Assembly (NCBI RefSeq): GCF_030297015.1
Contig: NZ_AP028056.1
Span: 1,188,939-1,252,938, forward strand
Source: Brooklawnia propionicigenes
Lineage (GTDB): Bacteria > Actinomycetota > Actinomycetes > Propionibacteriales > Propionibacteriaceae
DNA: 64,000 nt
Direction: 5' to 3'
Below the pieces are notes generated by a model, which made no database searches, was not told where the DNA came from, and saw only the letters and a program-made list of their open reading frames with translations. Shown piece after piece: positions 19,282-64,000 of this stretch (position 1 is its first letter; each line of letters opens with the position of its first letter). The translations under genes and the position numbers were made by a program.

Positions 19282-20164
19282 GGCGAGCGGCCTTTCGTTG
19301 CACCAGGTCCAGCGTGGCCAGCACGGCCAGCGCGATCACCAGCATTCCGGTGGCGATCGCCGCTGCCGATCCGAGCTCGCCGTTCTCGATGTGGGAGAGC
19401 ACCCGGACTGACACCACCTCGGTGCGGTTGGGCATATTGCCGGTCAGCAGCACCAGCGAGCCGTACTCGCTGATGCCACGAGCGAACGACAGCGCCACCC
19501 CGGAGGTGATCGCGGGGGCCAGGCTGGGCAGCACGATCCGGCGGAAGGTGACCCAACTTGACGCGCCGAGCGAGCTGGCAGCCTCTTCGACGTCCAATTC
19601 CAGTTCTTCCAGCACCGGCATCACCGTGCGCACCACGAAGGGCAAGGTCACGAAGGCGATGGCCAGCGCTACCGACATCCGGGTATTCGCGATGTTCACC
19701 CCGATCGGACTGCGCGGACCGTACAGCGACAACAGCACGAGCCCCGCGACGATGGTCGGCATCGCGAACGGGATGTCGATCACCACGTTCAGCACGCCCC
19801 GGCCCCAGAACCGATCCCGCACCAGCACCCAGGCGATGATCGTGCCCATCACCGCGTTCAGTAGGGCAATGCCCGCCGCGACGGCGACGGTCAACCCGAT
19901 GGCGTTGAGGGTCTGCGGGGCGGTCAGCGCGGCCCAGAAAGCTCCCGGGCCGCCGGCCACGGCGGTGCCCACCACCGCGGCCAGCGGGATCAGCACCAGC
20001 AGGCTCAGCCAGAGCACCGCCACTCCCAACCCCAGGCCCGAGGCGGCGGTGAGCCGACGATGGTACCGGGGCTGGGCGCGAACGCTGCGGATGGCTGTCG
20101 GAGCCGGCTCGACGATGACCTCGTCGCGGATGACGGGTGCCGGCGCAAGCGCGGTCCCTGTCAT
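19271..20164 (-). CDS. cysT: Sulfate ABC transporter permease CysT/CysU
   Basis: A 297-residue permease with a longer N-terminal cytoplasmic extension (about 45 residues, basic near PRYHRRLTA) than usual, then six helices. The EAA loop is VEEAASSLGASSWVTFRRIVLPSLAPA (about 196-222) and ARGISEYGSLVLLTGN (about 233) is the CysT signature. It pairs with CysW to form the channel. It overlaps the binding-protein gene by 4 bp. Confidence 0.92.
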   Translation of the reverse strand: MTGTALAPAPVIRDEVIVEPAPTAIRSVRAQPRYHRRLTAASGLGLGVAVLWLSLLVLIPLAAVVGTAVAGGPGAFWAALTAPQTLNAIGLTVAVAAGIALLNAVMGTIIAWVLVRDRFWGRGVLNVVIDIPFAMPTIVAGLVLLSLYGPRSPIGVNIANTRMSVALAIAFVTLPFVVRTVMPVLEELELDVEEAASSLGASSWVTFRRIVLPSLAPAITSGVALSFARGISEYGSLVLLTGNMPNRTEVVSVRVLSHIENGELGSAAAIATGMLVIALAVLATLDLVQRKAARHDS

Positions 20165-21201
20165 GACTTGCCGAGTTCGGCCAGCAGCTGGGTCACGATC
20201 CCGATCTGTTCGGCGAAGAAGGTCTTGGACAGTTCCTCCCAGGAGCCGAAATCATTGGCGATCGTGTACAGCCGTTGCGGTTGCGGGAAAGGACTCTCCG
20301 GATCGTTCGCACCCTCGACCCGTGCCGGGGCCTTGCCGTTCAACGGCCGGAAGCCGGTCTCGCCGAAGATCTCCTGGGCCTGATCGGACAGGACGAAATC
20401 GAGCCACTGGGTGGCGGCCGGCTTGGCGTCGATCAGCACGGTGCCGGGGTTCTCGATCAGCAGGGTGTCGTCCGGCACGATGTAGTCGAAATCGGCCCCG
20501 CTCTGCCGGGCGAGGATGGCCTCATTCTCGTAGGTGATGAAGACGTCGCCGGTGCCCGAGGTGAAGGCCGTGGTGGCGTCTCGTCCGCTACCGGGCAGCG
20601 CCACGGCATTGCCCAGCAGCTTCTTCAGGAAATCGGTCGCTTCGGCATCCGAACCACCGTTGGCGGCGATGTGCGCCCAGGCGGCCAGGATGTTCCAGCG
20701 GGCCGCTCCCGACGACGCCGGGTTCGGTGTCACGATCTCGACGCCGGGCTTGATCAGGTCGTCCCAGCCCTTGATACCGAGCGGGTTGCCCGGTCGGACG
20801 GCGAGCACGACCACCGACGTGGAGACCACGCCCTTGTTCGGGCCGGACTTCCAGTCAGGGCTGACCAGGCCGCCATCGACCAGTCGGGTGACGTCGGATT
20901 CGACCGAGAAATGGACATAATCGGCCGGCTGTCCGTTGAGGACATTGCGGCTCTGGTCCCCCGAGGCCCCATAGGAGGTCTCGAAGGTGACGTCCTGGCC
21001 GTCCGGGGTCTGCTGCCAGGCCTCGGCGATGCGGGCATTGGCCTCGGCCGGGACCGCGTAGCCGACGATGCTCAGCACCGTCGATTCGCCGGAGCCGGAG
21101 GGGGCCGACGCGGCGACATTCGAGCAAGCCGTCAACCAGGCCGCGATCAGCAGGGTCAGCGCCGCCAGAGACCGGCGCGGGGAAAGGGATGGGTGAGACA
21201 T
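20161..21201 (-). CDS. cysP: Sulfate-binding lipoprotein of the ABC importer
   Basis: A 346-residue periplasmic-type binding protein (Sbp/CysP family) with a lipoprotein signal: LTAC lipobox, Cys26. Mature motifs: LSIVGYAVPAEANARIAEAW, FETSYGASGDQSRNVLNGQPADYVHFSVESDV (anion-binding loop) and TPNPASSGAARWNILAAWAH, all typical of sulfate binders. GGAGG 8 nt before ATG 21201 supports the start. The leader upstream (21202-21430) carries a cysteine-rich short ORF and an anti-SD segment. It could be named sbp instead of cysP. Confidence 0.9.
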   Translation of the reverse strand: MSHPSLSPRRSLAALTLLIAAWLTACSNVAASAPSGSGESTVLSIVGYAVPAEANARIAEAWQQTPDGQDVTFETSYGASGDQSRNVLNGQPADYVHFSVESDVTRLVDGGLVSPDWKSGPNKGVVSTSVVVLAVRPGNPLGIKGWDDLIKPGVEIVTPNPASSGAARWNILAAWAHIAANGGSDAEATDFLKKLLGNAVALPGSGRDATTAFTSGTGDVFITYENEAILARQSGADFDYIVPDDTLLIENPGTVLIDAKPAATQWLDFVLSDQAQEIFGETGFRPLNGKAPARVEGANDPESPFPQPQRLYTIANDFGSWEELSKTFFAEQIGIVTQLLAELGKS

Positions 21202-21206
21202 GGGTC

Positions 21207-21288
21207 TTCCTCCAAGGGTGCAAGGTTGATGCAGAGTTGGGTGCCGGGTCGAGCGGCACGCACCGAGGTAACCCTGAAAAAGGAGAAA
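21207..21288 (-). promoter_or_regulatory. cysP Shine-Dalgarno and complementary anti-SD segment
   Basis: On the minus strand the SD GGAGGAA (21207-21213) can pair over 7 bp (one G-U) with TTTCTCC at 21282-21288, which lies between the Cys-rich short ORF and cysP. This would hide the ribosome site unless upstream translation changes the fold. Pairing was found by eye; no energy was calculated. Confidence 0.4.
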
Positions 21289-21345
21289 ATCACGCCTCGG
21301 GCGAGCCGACGCTCGCACCCAGGCATTGGGTTGGTCCGGTCGGGC

Positions 21346-21423
21346 TCAGCGGCACTTCAGACACGGACAACACATACGCAACCACCCGCCGAGGGCAGGA
21401 ATCTGGGTTGCGGAGGAGTACAT
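21346..21423 (-). CDS. Cysteine-rich leaderless leader peptide upstream of cysP
   Basis: A 25-codon ORF starting at ATG 21423 and ending TGA at 21346, 144 bp before cysP. It begins MYSSATQIP and ends LRMCCPCLKCR: Cys at residues 18, 19, 21 and 24, four of the last eight. There is no SD; the ATG lies exactly 7 nt after a TAGCCT box. This is the form of the polycysteine leaderless uORFs that act as cysteine-responsive attenuators in mycobacteria: scarce charged Cys-tRNA stalls the ribosome on the Cys codons and exposes the downstream start. Function here is inferred from composition, position and the two sister ORFs in this locus. Confidence 0.72.
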   Translation of the reverse strand: MYSSATQIPALGGWLRMCCPCLKCR

Positions 21424-21430
21424 GGCGGGA

Positions 21431-21436
21431 AGGCTA
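21431..21436 (-). promoter_or_regulatory. -10 box for the cysP leader
   Basis: TAGCCT (TANNNT) read leftward, followed by 7 nt and the ATG of the cysteine-rich ORF at 21423. The 126 bp between this box and the opposite -10 at 21563 form the shared divergent control region; I see no clear repressor palindrome in it. Confidence 0.6.
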
Positions 21437-21562
21437 CCTCAGATCCGAAGCCATTGGCAACCGCCTCACCAGCCGGATGTCGTCCATGCGGGCGATCCGG
21501 TTCGGCGGAAGACCTTCGGCGCCAGCAGGCAGCCGGTGGTAAGAGCTACGCCGAACCTCTGG

Positions 21563-21568
21563 TACCGT
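21563..21568 (+). promoter_or_regulatory. -10 box for the sir leader
   Basis: TACCGT (TANNNT) followed by 7 nt and the ATG of the cysteine-rich ORF at 21576, the same geometry as on the opposite strand at 21431. Confidence 0.6.
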
Positions 21569-21575
21569 TCTCACC

Positions 21576-21653
21576 ATGATCGGCAAGTTCGAGGTTCTCG
21601 CAGCGTCCTGCTGTCGCCTCGGCATGCCCGCGATGACCTGTCGCGTCTGCTGA
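21576..21653 (+). CDS. Cysteine-rich leaderless leader peptide upstream of sir
   Basis: A 25-codon ORF, 102 bp before the sulfite reductase start. It begins MIGKFEVLAASCC and ends MTCRVC: Cys at residues 12, 13, 22 and 25, the last codon before TGA. There is no SD, and the ATG follows a TANNNT box by 7 nt. Length, codon count and promoter spacing equal those of the divergent cysP leader. I infer that it senses Cys-tRNA charging and controls the sulfate-reduction operon. Confidence 0.72.
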   Translation: MIGKFEVLAASCCRLGMPAMTCRVC

Positions 21654-21733
21654 CGAGCGCCCGCAAACCCCACTTTTCCGGCCGGGCTCGTGCAGCCCGA
21701 GCGGGTTTCCTGCCGCGTTCGGCCCTCCGCGAG

Positions 21734-21752
21734 TCCTCAATCGCTATGAGGA
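21734..21752 (+). promoter_or_regulatory. Hairpin hiding the sir Shine-Dalgarno
   Basis: TCCTCA (21734-21739) pairs perfectly with TGAGGA (21747-21752) across a 7-nt loop. The second arm is the Shine-Dalgarno of sir, whose ATG begins at 21756. This is the kind of element a stalled upstream ribosome could indirectly open. Confidence 0.55.
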
Positions 21753-21755
21753 ACC

Positions 21756-23435
21756 ATGACCACCACAACCAAACGAGCACCACGTGCCGAAGGCCAGTGG
21801 GCAGTGGATGGCACTGCACCGCTGAACCCCAACGAGGTATTCAAGGCCGCTGACGACGGCCTCCACGTCCGGAAGCGGATCGAAGAGATCTACGCCAAGC
21901 AGGGCTTCGACTCGATCCCCTCAGATGATCTGCATGGCCGGATGCGCTGGTGGGGTCTTTATACCCAGCGCCGCCAGGGCATCGACGGTTCCCGGACCGC
22001 CGAGCTGACCCCCGACCAGCTGTCCGACCGTTACTTCATGATGCGGGTCCGGCTGGACGGCGGCGCGCTCAGCACCGAGCAGATCCGCACGCTGGCCGGG
22101 ATCTCGCGTGACTTCGCCCGCGGCACCGCCGACATCACCGATCGGCAGAATCTCCAGTTCCACTGGATCACCGTCGAGTCCGTGCCCGAGATCTGGCGCC
22201 GCCTGGAGGATGCCGGAATGCAGACCATCGAGGCCTGTGGCGACACTCCCCGGGTGATTCTCGGCTCGCCGGTGGCCGGTATCTCCGCGGACGAGATCAT
22301 CGATCCCACCCCGGTGATCGCCGAGATCGTCGAGCGGTTCATCGGTGACGAGTCGTTGTCGAATCTGCCTCGCAAGTTCAAGTCGGCGATCACCGGCCAC
22401 CCCAGCCTCGACGTCGTCCATGAGATCAACGACATCTCGCTGGTCGGCGTGGTGCATCCCGAACTGGGCGCCGGCTACGATCTGTGGGCCGGTGGCGGGC
22501 TGTCGGTGGCGCCGCGCCTGGCCCAGCGTCTCGGCGCCTTCGTCACCGCCGAGCAGGCCGCCGATGTCTGGCACGCCGAGATCCGGCTGTTCCGCGACTA
22601 CGGCTATCGCCGCCTGCGCAACCGGGCCCGGCTGAAGTTCCTGCTGGCCGACTGGGGGCCGCAGCGGTTCCGCGAGGTGCTCGAGAACGAGTACCTCGGA
22701 TACCGGCTGGCCGATGGTCCCGAGCCGGGGCCGTCCAGCCTGCCGGCCGATCACATCGGGGTGCACCCCCAGAAGGACGGCCTCAACTATGTGGGGTTCG
22801 CCCCCACCGTCGGACGGGTCTCCGAGGACATTCTCGAGGCCCTGGCCGATGCCGCCGATTCGGTCGGTGCCCGACGCATCCGGTTCACCCCGCACCAGAA
22901 ACTGCTGGTGCTCGACGTGCCGCCCGAGCGAACCGATGAGCTCATCGCCTCATTCGAGAAGCTGGGGCTGAGGGCCAATCCGAGCCCATTCCGGCGAGCC
23001 ACCTTGGCCTGCACCGGTATCGAGTACTGCAAGCTCGCCTTCGTCGAGACCAAGAGCACGGCAGCAGCCGTGATCGACACTCTCGAGCAGCGGCTGGCCG
23101 ACGTATCCCTGGATCGGCCGATCAGCCTGCACATCAACGGCTGCCCGAACTCCTGCGCCCGGATCCAGACCGCCGACATCGGCCTGAAGGGCCAGCTGCA
23201 GAAGAACCCGGACGGCACCGAGGAGTTCGCCTTCCAGGTTCACCTGGGTGGTGGCCTGGCCTCGGTCGACCGGGAGGACGCGGGCCTGGGGCGTACCGTG
23301 CGAGGCCTCAAGGTGACCTCGGCCAATATGCCCGACTACGTCGAGCGGGTCACCCGCAGCTATCTGGCCGGGCGCAAACCCGACGAGACCTTCGCCGACT
23401 GGGCCCACCGGGCCGACGATGAGGAGCTGCGATGA
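21756..23435 (+). CDS. sir: Ferredoxin-type sulfite reductase
   Basis: A 559-residue siroheme/[4Fe-4S] reductase that converts sulfite to sulfide. Cluster ligands appear as CTGIEYCK (about 425) and CPNSC in INGCPNSCARIQ (about 463). The first half has the siroheme-binding GTADITDRQNLQFHWI (about 126). Nitrite and sulfite reductases of this family are alike; the cys neighbours decide for sulfite. It opens an operon of five genes with overlapping ends. The start at 21756 has AGGA about 4 nt upstream, inside a hairpin. Confidence 0.92.
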   Translation: MTTTTKRAPRAEGQWAVDGTAPLNPNEVFKAADDGLHVRKRIEEIYAKQGFDSIPSDDLHGRMRWWGLYTQRRQGIDGSRTAELTPDQLSDRYFMMRVRLDGGALSTEQIRTLAGISRDFARGTADITDRQNLQFHWITVESVPEIWRRLEDAGMQTIEACGDTPRVILGSPVAGISADEIIDPTPVIAEIVERFIGDESLSNLPRKFKSAITGHPSLDVVHEINDISLVGVVHPELGAGYDLWAGGGLSVAPRLAQRLGAFVTAEQAADVWHAEIRLFRDYGYRRLRNRARLKFLLADWGPQRFREVLENEYLGYRLADGPEPGPSSLPADHIGVHPQKDGLNYVGFAPTVGRVSEDILEALADAADSVGARRIRFTPHQKLLVLDVPPERTDELIASFEKLGLRANPSPFRRATLACTGIEYCKLAFVETKSTAAAVIDTLEQRLADVSLDRPISLHINGCPNSCARIQTADIGLKGQLQKNPDGTEEFAFQVHLGGGLASVDREDAGLGRTVRGLKVTSANMPDYVERVTRSYLAGRKPDETFADWAHRADDEELR

Positions 23436-27142: not shown

Positions 27143-28324
27143 TCAGGCAGGAATCTCGAAACCACTCCACAACAGGTGGGCCAGAGCCAATCCGATCACC
27201 AGGTTGGCCACGGTCGCCAGGGCGAACACGGCGATCGGCCGCCAGCCCGCACGCCGCAGCGAAGAGACCTTGAGTTCCAGTCCGATGCTCACGAAAGCGA
27301 AGGTCAGGAACCAGGTGCGCAGGTTGTTCGCGGTGCCGATCAGGGGGGCGGCAGCCTGCGAGCCCACCGAGTTCACGAAGATCGTCGCGATGATCGAGGC
27401 GACCAGGAAGCCGAGCACGAACTTCGGGAATCGCTGCCAGAACAGCGAAGCAGTAGGAGCTGCCTCCCCCGGTTTGCGGTCGATCTTGTAGGCGAAGAAC
27501 ACCGTGAGCAGGACCGCGGCGACACCGAGCAGCGCGTTCTGGGTGCTCTTGACGATGGCTGCGATCTGCAACGGGGCCTCACCGGCGATGCTGCCCGCCG
27601 CGGTGACGGCCGCGGTGGTATCGATGTTGCCACCGATCCAGGCGCCAGTCTGTGCGTCGGTGAGCCCCAGCAGGCCCGCCAACCACGGCAGCAGGAAGAT
27701 CGACGGGAGTGCGAAGATGATCACCAGGCTCGCGGTGTAGGCGAGATCCTCCTTCTTCGCCTTGACCGCGCCCGCTGCGGCGATCGCGGCACTGACACCG
27801 CAGATCGACACGGCGCTCGACAGCAGCGCACGAAGCCGGGCGTCCAGACCGAACAGCCTGCCCAGCCACCAGGTGATGAAGAAGACCGAGGTGATCAGCA
27901 GCGTTGCCTGCGCGATGGCCGGCGCGGCTGCCTTCACGATGATGGCGAAGTTGATGGACGCGCCCAGCAGCACCAGGCCGGTCTTGATCAGGAACTCGGT
28001 GCGGAACCCGGGCGAGAGCCTGTCCCGCAGGTTCAGCGCGCTCAGCAGCGCATTGCCGAGCAGGCCGAAGATGATGGCGTACACGGGATACTCGATCGTG
28101 CCGAGCCAACTCACCGAGGTGCCCTTCGTCCAGATCGGAACGTATTCCGACAGGTACCACGCGGCAGTGCCGAGGATCACCACGACGGCCAGTCCGCCGA
28201 TGATCCACTGCAGGGGGCCACTGGGGCGAGGCTCGTCCAGTTCGTCGTCGAGGGACGCCTGAACAGCGCTGGCGAGTTCGTCATTCAGTTCTTCGTTTGC
28301 ACTGATCGGCTTGATGTCGGTCAT
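27143..28324 (-). CDS. YeiH-family putative sulfate exporter
   Basis: A 393-residue protein with about ten membrane helices after a 40-residue acidic N-terminus. Family markers: LVLLGASINFAIIVKAA (about 119), SSAVSICGVSAAIAAAGAVKAKKEDLAY (about 167-194) and the C-terminal FAFVSIGLELKVSSLRRAGWRP. YeiH proteins are annotated as sulfate exporters with little experimental backing; location beside the cys operons and a polycysteine leader supports a link to sulfur or cysteine balance. It overlaps the preceding small gene by 4 bp. Confidence 0.82.
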   Translation of the reverse strand: MTDIKPISANEELNDELASAVQASLDDELDEPRPSGPLQWIIGGLAVVVILGTAAWYLSEYVPIWTKGTSVSWLGTIEYPVYAIIFGLLGNALLSALNLRDRLSPGFRTEFLIKTGLVLLGASINFAIIVKAAAPAIAQATLLITSVFFITWWLGRLFGLDARLRALLSSAVSICGVSAAIAAAGAVKAKKEDLAYTASLVIIFALPSIFLLPWLAGLLGLTDAQTGAWIGGNIDTTAAVTAAGSIAGEAPLQIAAIVKSTQNALLGVAAVLLTVFFAYKIDRKPGEAAPTASLFWQRFPKFVLGFLVASIIATIFVNSVGSQAAAPLIGTANNLRTWFLTFAFVSIGLELKVSSLRRAGWRPIAVFALATVANLVIGLALAHLLWSGFEIPA

Positions 28325-28494
28325 TGGATGACTCCCGGAGGAATAATGCCGGTGAGGGCGAGAGTGAGCAGGACGAGGCCGGTGATAACAGCCAGCCAGT
28401 CCTCATTGATGGAGAACTTTCCGGCGGAGTCGGGCGCTGAGGGGTCTCTTTCGGGGGCTGCCGACGTAATCCGGGCAGCATCGGATGCAGACAT
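28321..28494 (-). CDS. Small single-helix membrane protein coupled to YeiH
   Basis: A 57-residue protein: a polar N-terminus of 30 residues, then FSINEDWLAVITGLVLLTLALTGIIPP forming one membrane helix. From memory, some longer YeiH-type proteins begin with a similar EDW-xAV-x-x-G helix, so this looks like that N-terminal segment encoded separately. AAAGGAAG precedes ATG 28494, and the stop overlaps the YeiH start by 4 bp, so the two should be made in equal amounts. It may be a subunit of the transporter. Confidence 0.62.
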   Translation of the reverse strand: MSASDAARITSAAPERDPSAPDSAGKFSINEDWLAVITGLVLLTLALTGIIPPGVIQ

Positions 28495-28630: not shown

Positions 28631-28717
28631 CTATCGGAGACAGGCGCGAGTTCCGCGGCGACAACAACAGCCGCGGAGCATGAGAAATGCCACAGAAATG
28701 GGAGCAGGGATGCTCAT
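28631..28717 (-). CDS. Polycysteine leaderless leader peptide upstream of yeiH operon
   Basis: A 28-codon ORF from ATG 28717 to TAG at 28631, 136 bp before the small membrane gene. It begins MSIPAPISV and ends LRGCCCRRGTRACLR, with three consecutive Cys codons at 17-19 and a fourth at 26. There is no SD; ATG lies exactly 7 nt after TACATT. It is the third such ORF of the locus. Between it and the next gene is a 6-bp hairpin (ATTGCG/CGCAAT, 28518-28543 region) and a weak CTTC/GAAG pairing at the SD. In the rest of the gap (28731-28926) I see nothing else I can support. Confidence 0.7.
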   Translation of the reverse strand: MSIPAPISVAFLMLRGCCCRRGTRACLR

Positions 28718-63147: not shown

Positions 63148-63217
63148 GGTCGGCGGTGCGCCGGGAAGTCTGGTCGGCATCGGCCGTTCGGCCGAGGAGG
63201 CTGGACAAGGAGACCCT

Positions 63218-64000
63218 GTGGCACGCGAGATCGGCACGACCTGGAAGACCCCTGTGCTGTTGGCACCGGTCCGGTACCTGCGGGGGTTCGTGAGACGGTC
63301 GCCGTCCCGGGCCGCGGTGCTGATCTTCTTCGTCGCCGCCGGACTCTTCACGCTCCTGCTGAAGCTGCCCATCGCCTCTGCTGACGGTCGCTCGGCCCCG
63401 CTGGAGGACGCGGTGTTCACGGCGACCTCCGCGGTCACCGTGACCGGCCTGACGACCGTCGACACCGCCACGCAGTGGACGTTCTTCGGGCAGGTCGTGA
63501 TCCTCCTCGCCATCCAGGCAGGGGGCCTGGGGATCGTCACCGTCGCGCTGCTGCTGATGCAGGCGGTGACCAGGCACCTCGGCGTGCAGGGGAGGGTGTT
63601 CGCGCAGCAGAACATGGGCGGAGCCTCGCAGATCGGCGAGGTCGGCCGTCTGCTGCGCACGGTGGTGGTCACCACCCTGACCATCGAGGCCGTGCTCGTG
63701 CTCCTCCTCGCTCCTCGGTTCGTCATGCGTGAGGAACACTGGTGGGAGGGGCTGTGGAGCGCCCTGTTCTACGGCGTCTCGGCGTTCAACAACGCCGGAT
63801 TCGTCATCCACGAGGGCGGGCTGACGCCCTTCGAGGGCGACCTGTGGATCCTGGTTCCGATCATGCTCGGCGTGTTCGTGGGCAGCTTCGGCTTCCCGGT
63901 GTTCCTCACCCTCATCATGCACAAGTGGCACCGGCGCAAGTGGAACCTGCACGCCAAGCTCACCCTGGCCACTACCACGATCCTGCTGGCAGCCGGCGCG
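63218..64000 (+). CDS. TrkH-family cation transporter, N-terminal part (cut by window end)
   Basis: An open frame of 261 codons from GTG 63218 to the right edge, with AAGGAG 7 nt upstream. After a basic N-terminus come a helix ([20 protein letters not shown]), the first pore loop [21 protein letters not shown] (about 68-88), [20 protein letters not shown], and the second pore loop [14 protein letters not shown] (about 187). This is a second TrkH-type protein distinct from the one at 58102-59475. A regulatory RCK gene may follow outside the window. Confidence 0.85.

Follow-up and report, generated by a model that had tools for sequence, protein, structure and literature searches.

A divergent pair of putative cysteine-sensing leader ORFs between cysP and sir of Brooklawnia propionicigenes, and related leaders in the Propionibacteriaceae

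In Brooklawnia propionicigenes two short cysteine-rich ORFs face away from each other in the intergenic region that separates the genes of sulfate import from those of sulfite reduction, and comparison with related genomes gives us considerable confidence that both are cysteine-sensing leaders. It is also probable, at a lower level of confidence, that each specifies, on a leaderless mRNA, the leader peptide of an attenuator that responds to cysteine. On the sir side the features of the RNA suggest an attenuator platform with an arm directly after the leader stop codon and a downstream hairpin, to which we give about an even chance.

The two short ORFs and their intergenic region

The DNA analysed (hereafter the window) is a stretch of 64,000 nt of B. 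propionicigenes, positions 1,188,939-1,252,938 of NZ_AP028056.1. The preliminary description had claimed two divergent 25-codon Cys-rich ORFs between cysP and sir, and a TANNNT box 7 nt ahead of each ATG; both statements are confirmed in the sequence (Table 1). The leader stop and the gene start are 144 nt apart for cysP and 102 nt apart for sir. The sulfate-binding protein gene is followed by those of two permeases and then of an ATPase, and the nitrite/sulfite reductase gene by cysH, cysD and cysN. The product of the latter gene passed no NCBIfam equivalog cut-off, so that the name sir rests on the protein family and the neighbouring genes. In the sir leader peptide two of the four Cys residues are adjacent and the other two stand singly. 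At both ORFs clustered Cys codons stand ahead of sulfur genes, as in polycysteine sORF attenuators. A sigma-70 scan found no promoter, and Rfam gave no curated match, the only hit being SNORD23 (22.5 bits, gathering threshold 64) on 20930-21037.

Table 1. Features of the window, with positions counted from its first nucleotide
Feature	Position	Strand	Remarks
cysP, sulfate-binding protein gene	20161..21201	-	TIGR00971 181.6 bits (cut-off 155.5); heads the importer genes
cysP SD GGAGGAAG and ATG	21199..21213	-	cysP ATG at 21201
Candidate anti-SD TTTTCTCC of cysP leader	21277..21289	-	pairs with the SD in blocked-ribosome folds
cysP-side leader ORF MYSSATQIPALGGWLRMCCPCLKCR	21346..21423	-	25 codons; Cys 18, 19, 21, 24
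-10-like box TAGCCT	21431..21436	-	7 nt upstream of cysP-side leader ATG
-10-like box TACCGT	21563..21568	+	7 nt upstream of sir leader ATG
sir leader ORF MIGKFEVLAASCCRLGMPAMTCRVC	21576..21653	+	25 codons; Cys 12, 13, 22, 25
Post-stop arm CGAGCGCCCGC (segment 2)	21654..21664	+	sir leader
Hairpin CGGGCT-CGTGC-AGCCCG (segments 3 and 4)	21683..21699	+	tail AGCGGGTTTC
TCCTCA...TGAGGA	21734..21752	+	possible SD-masking hairpin of sir
sir, nitrite/sulfite reductase family	21756..23435	+	PF01077 and PF03460; heads sir-cysHDN
yeiH family transporter	27143..28324	-	PF03601 177.4 bits (cut-off 24.5)
57-aa membrane-type ORF	28321..28494	-	between third leader and yeiH; similar ORF start in G016
Third leader MSIPAPISVAFLMLRGCCCRRGTRACLR	28631..28717	-	TACATT box 7 nt ahead of ATG

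The window was scanned for ORFs of at most 45 codons with at least two Cys, starting with ATG or GTG 6-8 nt after TANNNT. Four were found, i.e. the cysP leader, the sir leader, one ahead of yeiH and a GTG ORF at 63156. The last of these (63156-63293, plus strand; 45 codons, three Cys, 8 nt after TAGAAT) overlaps longer ORFs on both strands and probably arose by chance. Dinucleotide shuffles of 21202-21755 were examined for TANNNT-N7-ATG ORFs that had four or more Cys in no more than 30 codons, and 0/20000 contained even one on either strand. Chance had earlier been called unlikely from the equal length and spacing of the pair. Chance is indeed excluded by the shuffles, while equal length is weak evidence because the lengths differ elsewhere; in the near relative G178 both leaders again have 25 codons, but those of G067 have 24 and 29, and the divergent leaders of G016 have 30 and 23. 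The spacing from box to start is mostly 6 to 8 nt among the relatives.

Leaders upstream of sir in related genomes

A search for sir found a match at E ≤ 0.001 in 107 of 197 genomes of the family, a number in which weak paralogue hits are counted. The upstream regions analysed were 159, of which 85 were from the family and 74 from a collection of named genomes (from the best 80 of 585). Family hits outside the 159 include those of G029, G107, G113, G139, G151, G175, G183 and G187. Duplicates (L128, L129, L149, L178 and L199), the same-species locus L002, a split hit (L104), a region of 134 nt (L176) and one on the wrong side of the gene (L032) were excluded before counting.

A fixed rule was used to define a leader: 12-50 codons, at least two Cys with one of them in the last ten residues, a box at 6-8 nt, and a position within 450 nt. 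A sense-strand leader was found by this rule in 42 of the 159 sir regions (25/85 in the family and 17/74 in the collection), and the remaining 117 gave none under it. Relaxing the rule to at least one Cys raised the number to 52/159. On the antisense strand there were just two among the 159, both being divergent partners, namely the cysP leader of B. propionicigenes itself and the yeiH leader of G016. Among 2144 controls, each 450 nt long and taken from the collection loci, none had a leader with at least two Cys by the rule, and one had a leader with at least one Cys.

The named genomes with sir leaders include Propionicimonas, Nigerium, Cellulosimicrobium, Oerskovia and Promicromonospora, and no leader was found at the sir loci of Arthrobacter, Brevibacterium and Knoellia. 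The leaders L131-L161, L180 and L192 (Promicromonospora, Oerskovia, Cellulosimicrobium and others) are Cys-rich and have GCGCC after the stop codon, in a different layout.

Leaders upstream of cysP, yeiH and other genes

A cysP-side leader is present in five of 30 cysP loci, two of them of B. propionicigenes and the others of G178, G033 and G067; none was found by the rule in the other 25. Eight further hits were weaker (identity 43% or more) and lay outside the 30 loci; that of G068 is one of them. The cysP leaders have a common Cys run, e.g. CCPCL or CCCLCP. It had been predicted that relatives would have Cys-rich ORFs at the same place, in which the Cys codons are conserved although the rest of the peptide drifts. 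They do, but only in part, i.e. at these five of 30 cysP loci and at the 42 of 159 sir loci.

The arrangement of the genes varies. A leader in each direction between cysP and sir is seen in B. propionicigenes and G067, and in G178 both leaders are present on different contigs. G016 has a divergent yeiH and sir pair with leaders MSSADVPTRDLTCRVAPGTRCCCRSAMLRV and MAAQGCDILFCSRAACPRACRAS, and in G033 cysP is divergent to a sugar-type ABC importer while sir has a separate leader. Judged by these arrangements, the leaders travel with their genes, whose layout as a divergent pair is one among several. The importer of G033 has its own Cys-rich leader divergent to cysP (L238, 4034-3960, minus strand) and it is possible that it imports sulfur-bearing organic compounds. 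In G068 a leader of the sir type (L265), with the full hairpin and a TCTTTT tail, stands ahead of cysP; sir lies downstream on the same strand, so that one leader may serve both arms.

The third leader of the window is ahead of yeiH, the product of which scored 92.4 bits with TIGR00698, under the cut-off of 232.6. Leaders with at least four Cys were found ahead of yeiH in 7 of 30 loci scanned, and in six of the 12 loci with at least 58% identity (one of the 12 has only 292 nt upstream). The second yeiH copy of the B. propionicigenes genome (L243, 65% identity) has no such leader. A sir-type leader element is also seen ahead of an ABC importer in G165 (L266) and G149 (L267). The binding protein of the G165 importer belongs to the SsuA family (TIGR01728, 176.4 bits against 163.5).

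Anatomy of the sir leaders

The anatomy was analysed in 35 sir leaders of the family, from which L002 was excluded and to which nine (L004, L007, L011, L022, L024, L025, L027, L029 and L030) were added by eye; all counts that follow come from related sequences and are uncorrected for kinship. In 29 of the 35, the B. propionicigenes leader included, a Cys codon lies exactly four before the stop codon, where 8.1 would be expected from the last ten codons. Without the leaders added by eye the count is 21/26. This codon is TGT in all 29; the sir gene itself prefers TGC by 4 to 1. The regulatory codons of the window leader are close to its end, at Cys 22 and 25 of 25. We reject the CC at codons 12 and 13 as the main sensor, since G178 has single Cys residues there instead, at 11 and 14. 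The conserved sensor codon is Cys 22.

The motif GCGCC occurs within 12 nt past the stop codon in 25 of the 35 (1.6 expected). It is also a feature of the leaders of other families (14/17, with 1.3 expected), in which a Cys codon at the fourth position before the stop is not enriched (7/17, with 7.1 expected). A complementary triple was found in 21 of the 35 family leaders against an expected 1.2, and the window leader has one. The corresponding numbers are 1/17 for the other families (1.0 expected) and 0/3 for cysP leaders. The arms flanking the stop codon pair better with their cognate partner than when partners are swapped (4/20000 permutations); this applies to 28 of the 35 leaders, the seven without that layout having been excluded.

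Of 38 leaders (the 35 together with L265-L267), 30 have a perfect hairpin of at least five base pairs, which is a raw count without a shuffle control. In leaders with an extended CCGGGC/GCCCGG stem, the pair that follows is A-T, G-C or T-A. The 9 nt past the hairpin have on average 2.67 T in these 30 leaders, compared with 1.33 from composition. Six of the 30 have at least four T, G068 among them, and the tail of the window hairpin is weak, with three in nine. The window hairpin was not listed by a terminator scan.

The RNAalifold consensus of 21 leaders contains 0 pairs, and pairing of the leader end with the next 35 nt beats shuffles in 0/42 leaders. When folds were calculated with the site of the ribosome blocked, the hairpin persisted in most states of 12 leaders, and neither these nor five cysP leaders gave a clean switch. 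A model of the sequence only (R1) was trained on the window leader, and its hit there therefore proves nothing.

A proposed mechanism, and the alternatives

We propose that transcription would start at the leader ATG, and that a ribosome would translate the leader from there. With ample Cys-tRNA the ribosome would reach the stop codon and cover the GCGCC motif, the hairpin at 21683-21699 would form, and expression of sir-cysHDN would be low. When Cys-tRNA is scarce the ribosome would be expected to wait at the conserved TGT codon ahead of the stop. A ribosome that holds the Cys codon in its A site reaches forward by about four codons, and thus the post-stop arm would be free when the ribosome is waiting and covered when it is at the stop. 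The free arm could base-pair with the 5′ half of the hairpin stem, so that the operon is expressed. The direction of the response is something we infer, as is termination rather than control of translation. The minus-strand leader would act likewise for the sulfate importer.

The same sensor might operate on a translational platform, the waiting ribosome unmasking the Shine-Dalgarno (SD) sequences of sir and cysP as in mycobacteria. Pairings that could serve this purpose are present in the sequence, i.e. TCCTCA with TGAGGA for sir and TTTTCTCC with GGAGGAAG for cysP, and in 7 of 42 leaders the anti-SD pairing is better than in shuffles; three of the seven are from Propionicimonas (L006, L008 and L102). 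Against this, neither gene of the window is significant when compared with shuffles (p 0.42 for sir and 0.62 for cysP), and the mean z over the 42 leaders is -0.54. Thirteen further leaders have no clear start with an SD and were outside this set. With seven significant among 42, and neither window leader among them, we reject SD sequestration as a general platform and regard it as rather unlikely to be how these two genes are controlled.

Termination by Rho could also be coupled to the sensor, in that a completed leader would leave naked RNA for Rho. It would be in keeping with the weak T tails of many leaders, and in the available parts of a 2005 paper it is proposed for the cys leaders of mycobacteria and P. 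acnes (PMC1262725). Rho-dependent termination would leave the motif, the triple and the hairpin unexplained, and we consider it improbable.

The ORFs might instead encode functional Cys-rich micropeptides (e.g. binding metals or thiols) that are not sensors. Clustering of Cys would fit such a function, but the peptides drift strongly among relatives outside the Cys codons and matched no Pfam family at a meaningful score, which makes it very improbable. That both are chance ORFs adjoining promoters can be virtually dismissed, for neither the shuffles nor the control stretches contain one, homologues occupy the same place in relatives, and we found no point in support.

Relation to known cysteine leaders

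Polycysteine leaderless sORFs have been described in mycobacteria (Canestrari et al. 2020, doi 10.1111/mmi.14498, as cited in accessible parts of PMC9031893, PMC9094748 and PMC13236596), and Cys-rich leaderless uORFs of mycobacteria appear in the portion of PMC4633059 consulted. Leader attenuation of the kind proposed here resembles these, as far as those sources describe them, in the short Cys-rich ORF, the leaderless-type promoter, the cysteine genes that follow, and the provision of every operon with its own leader. It differs in belonging to another bacterial family and in the divergent pair on one intergenic region; in mycobacteria, moreover, masking of the SD is reportedly the platform, and such masking is not significant here.

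Leader peptides with runs of Cys were predicted in 2005 for the cys operon of Propionibacterium acnes and of mycobacteria and for cbs of B. longum (PMC1262725). According to the sections of that paper available, no terminator hairpin was seen to be conserved among the mycobacteria, and the mode of regulation was called unknown; it was left open because the other elements of an attenuator were missing there. Those leaders are, like ours, from Actinobacteria (one from the same family) and have Cys runs near the stop codon ahead of a cys operon, but the family sir leaders here differ from what is described there in having the post-stop motif, the triple and the hairpin. The uORFC-8-2 motif ahead of cysS in Rhodobacterales (PMC8632094) is likewise described, in the excerpts available, with tandem Cys codons in a uORF, stems and proposed control of a terminator. 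Unlike the present leaders it is from Alphaproteobacteria, precedes another gene and has a run of U in its consensus.

Some of the relatives' peptides pass or come near the NCBIfam models of Cys leaders; the sir leaders L022 (35.1 bits) and L041 (29.2 bits) pass NF042934 cis_reg_atten (cut-off 27). The two window peptides gave no match to NF042933 leader_Ms5788A, NF042934 or NF042936 leader_Ms4527A at E up to 5. A literature search that covered few subscription journals returned, in the text available from each source, neither a divergent pair nor a yeiH gene preceded by a Cys leader.

We conclude that the two ORFs are very probably functional cysteine sensors. They represent a kind of switch already known from the mycobacterial polycysteine sORFs and the 2005 prediction for P. 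acnes, here guarding both halves of the pathway. What is new is the set of family sir leaders in which TGT stands four codons ahead of the stop and is followed by the GCGCC motif, the triple and a terminator-like hairpin, which together have the layout of a classical attenuator and offer a possible new platform for the sir arm.

Implications for sulfur assimilation

The preliminary description had proposed that cysteine-responsive attenuators govern both arms of assimilation, and this is supported by the leaders on both arms here and in G067. If true, one intergenic region can hold both arms, and ribosome-based cysteine sensing on leaderless leaders extends well past mycobacteria. The fixed Cys position and the triple would then provide a concrete model for leaders whose mode of action stayed open in the 2005 account, as far as its available sections go.

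A wider reading, which we offer tentatively and hold at somewhat less than even, is that the sir leader of the Propionibacteriaceae forms a complete attenuator of fixed geometry and, together with sister leaders lacking the triple, would define a ribosome-read cysteine regulon. The geometry would consist of TGT at the fourth codon before the stop, a GCGCCCG arm immediately past the stop and the CCGGGC/GCCCGG terminator-like hairpin, and the regulon would comprise sulfate import, sulfite reduction, sulfonate import of the SsuA family and the YeiH transporter. Since its leader places YeiH in the cysteine regulon, this protein, named as a sulfate exporter, would here serve the supply of sulfur. 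A role in export under cysteine shortage is also possible, because YeiH gives sulfite resistance in Salmonella (in the part of PMC12880088 available). If the leaders do sense cysteine, they also mark yeiH, the SsuA-family importer and the sugar-type ABC importer as probable sulfur-supply genes.
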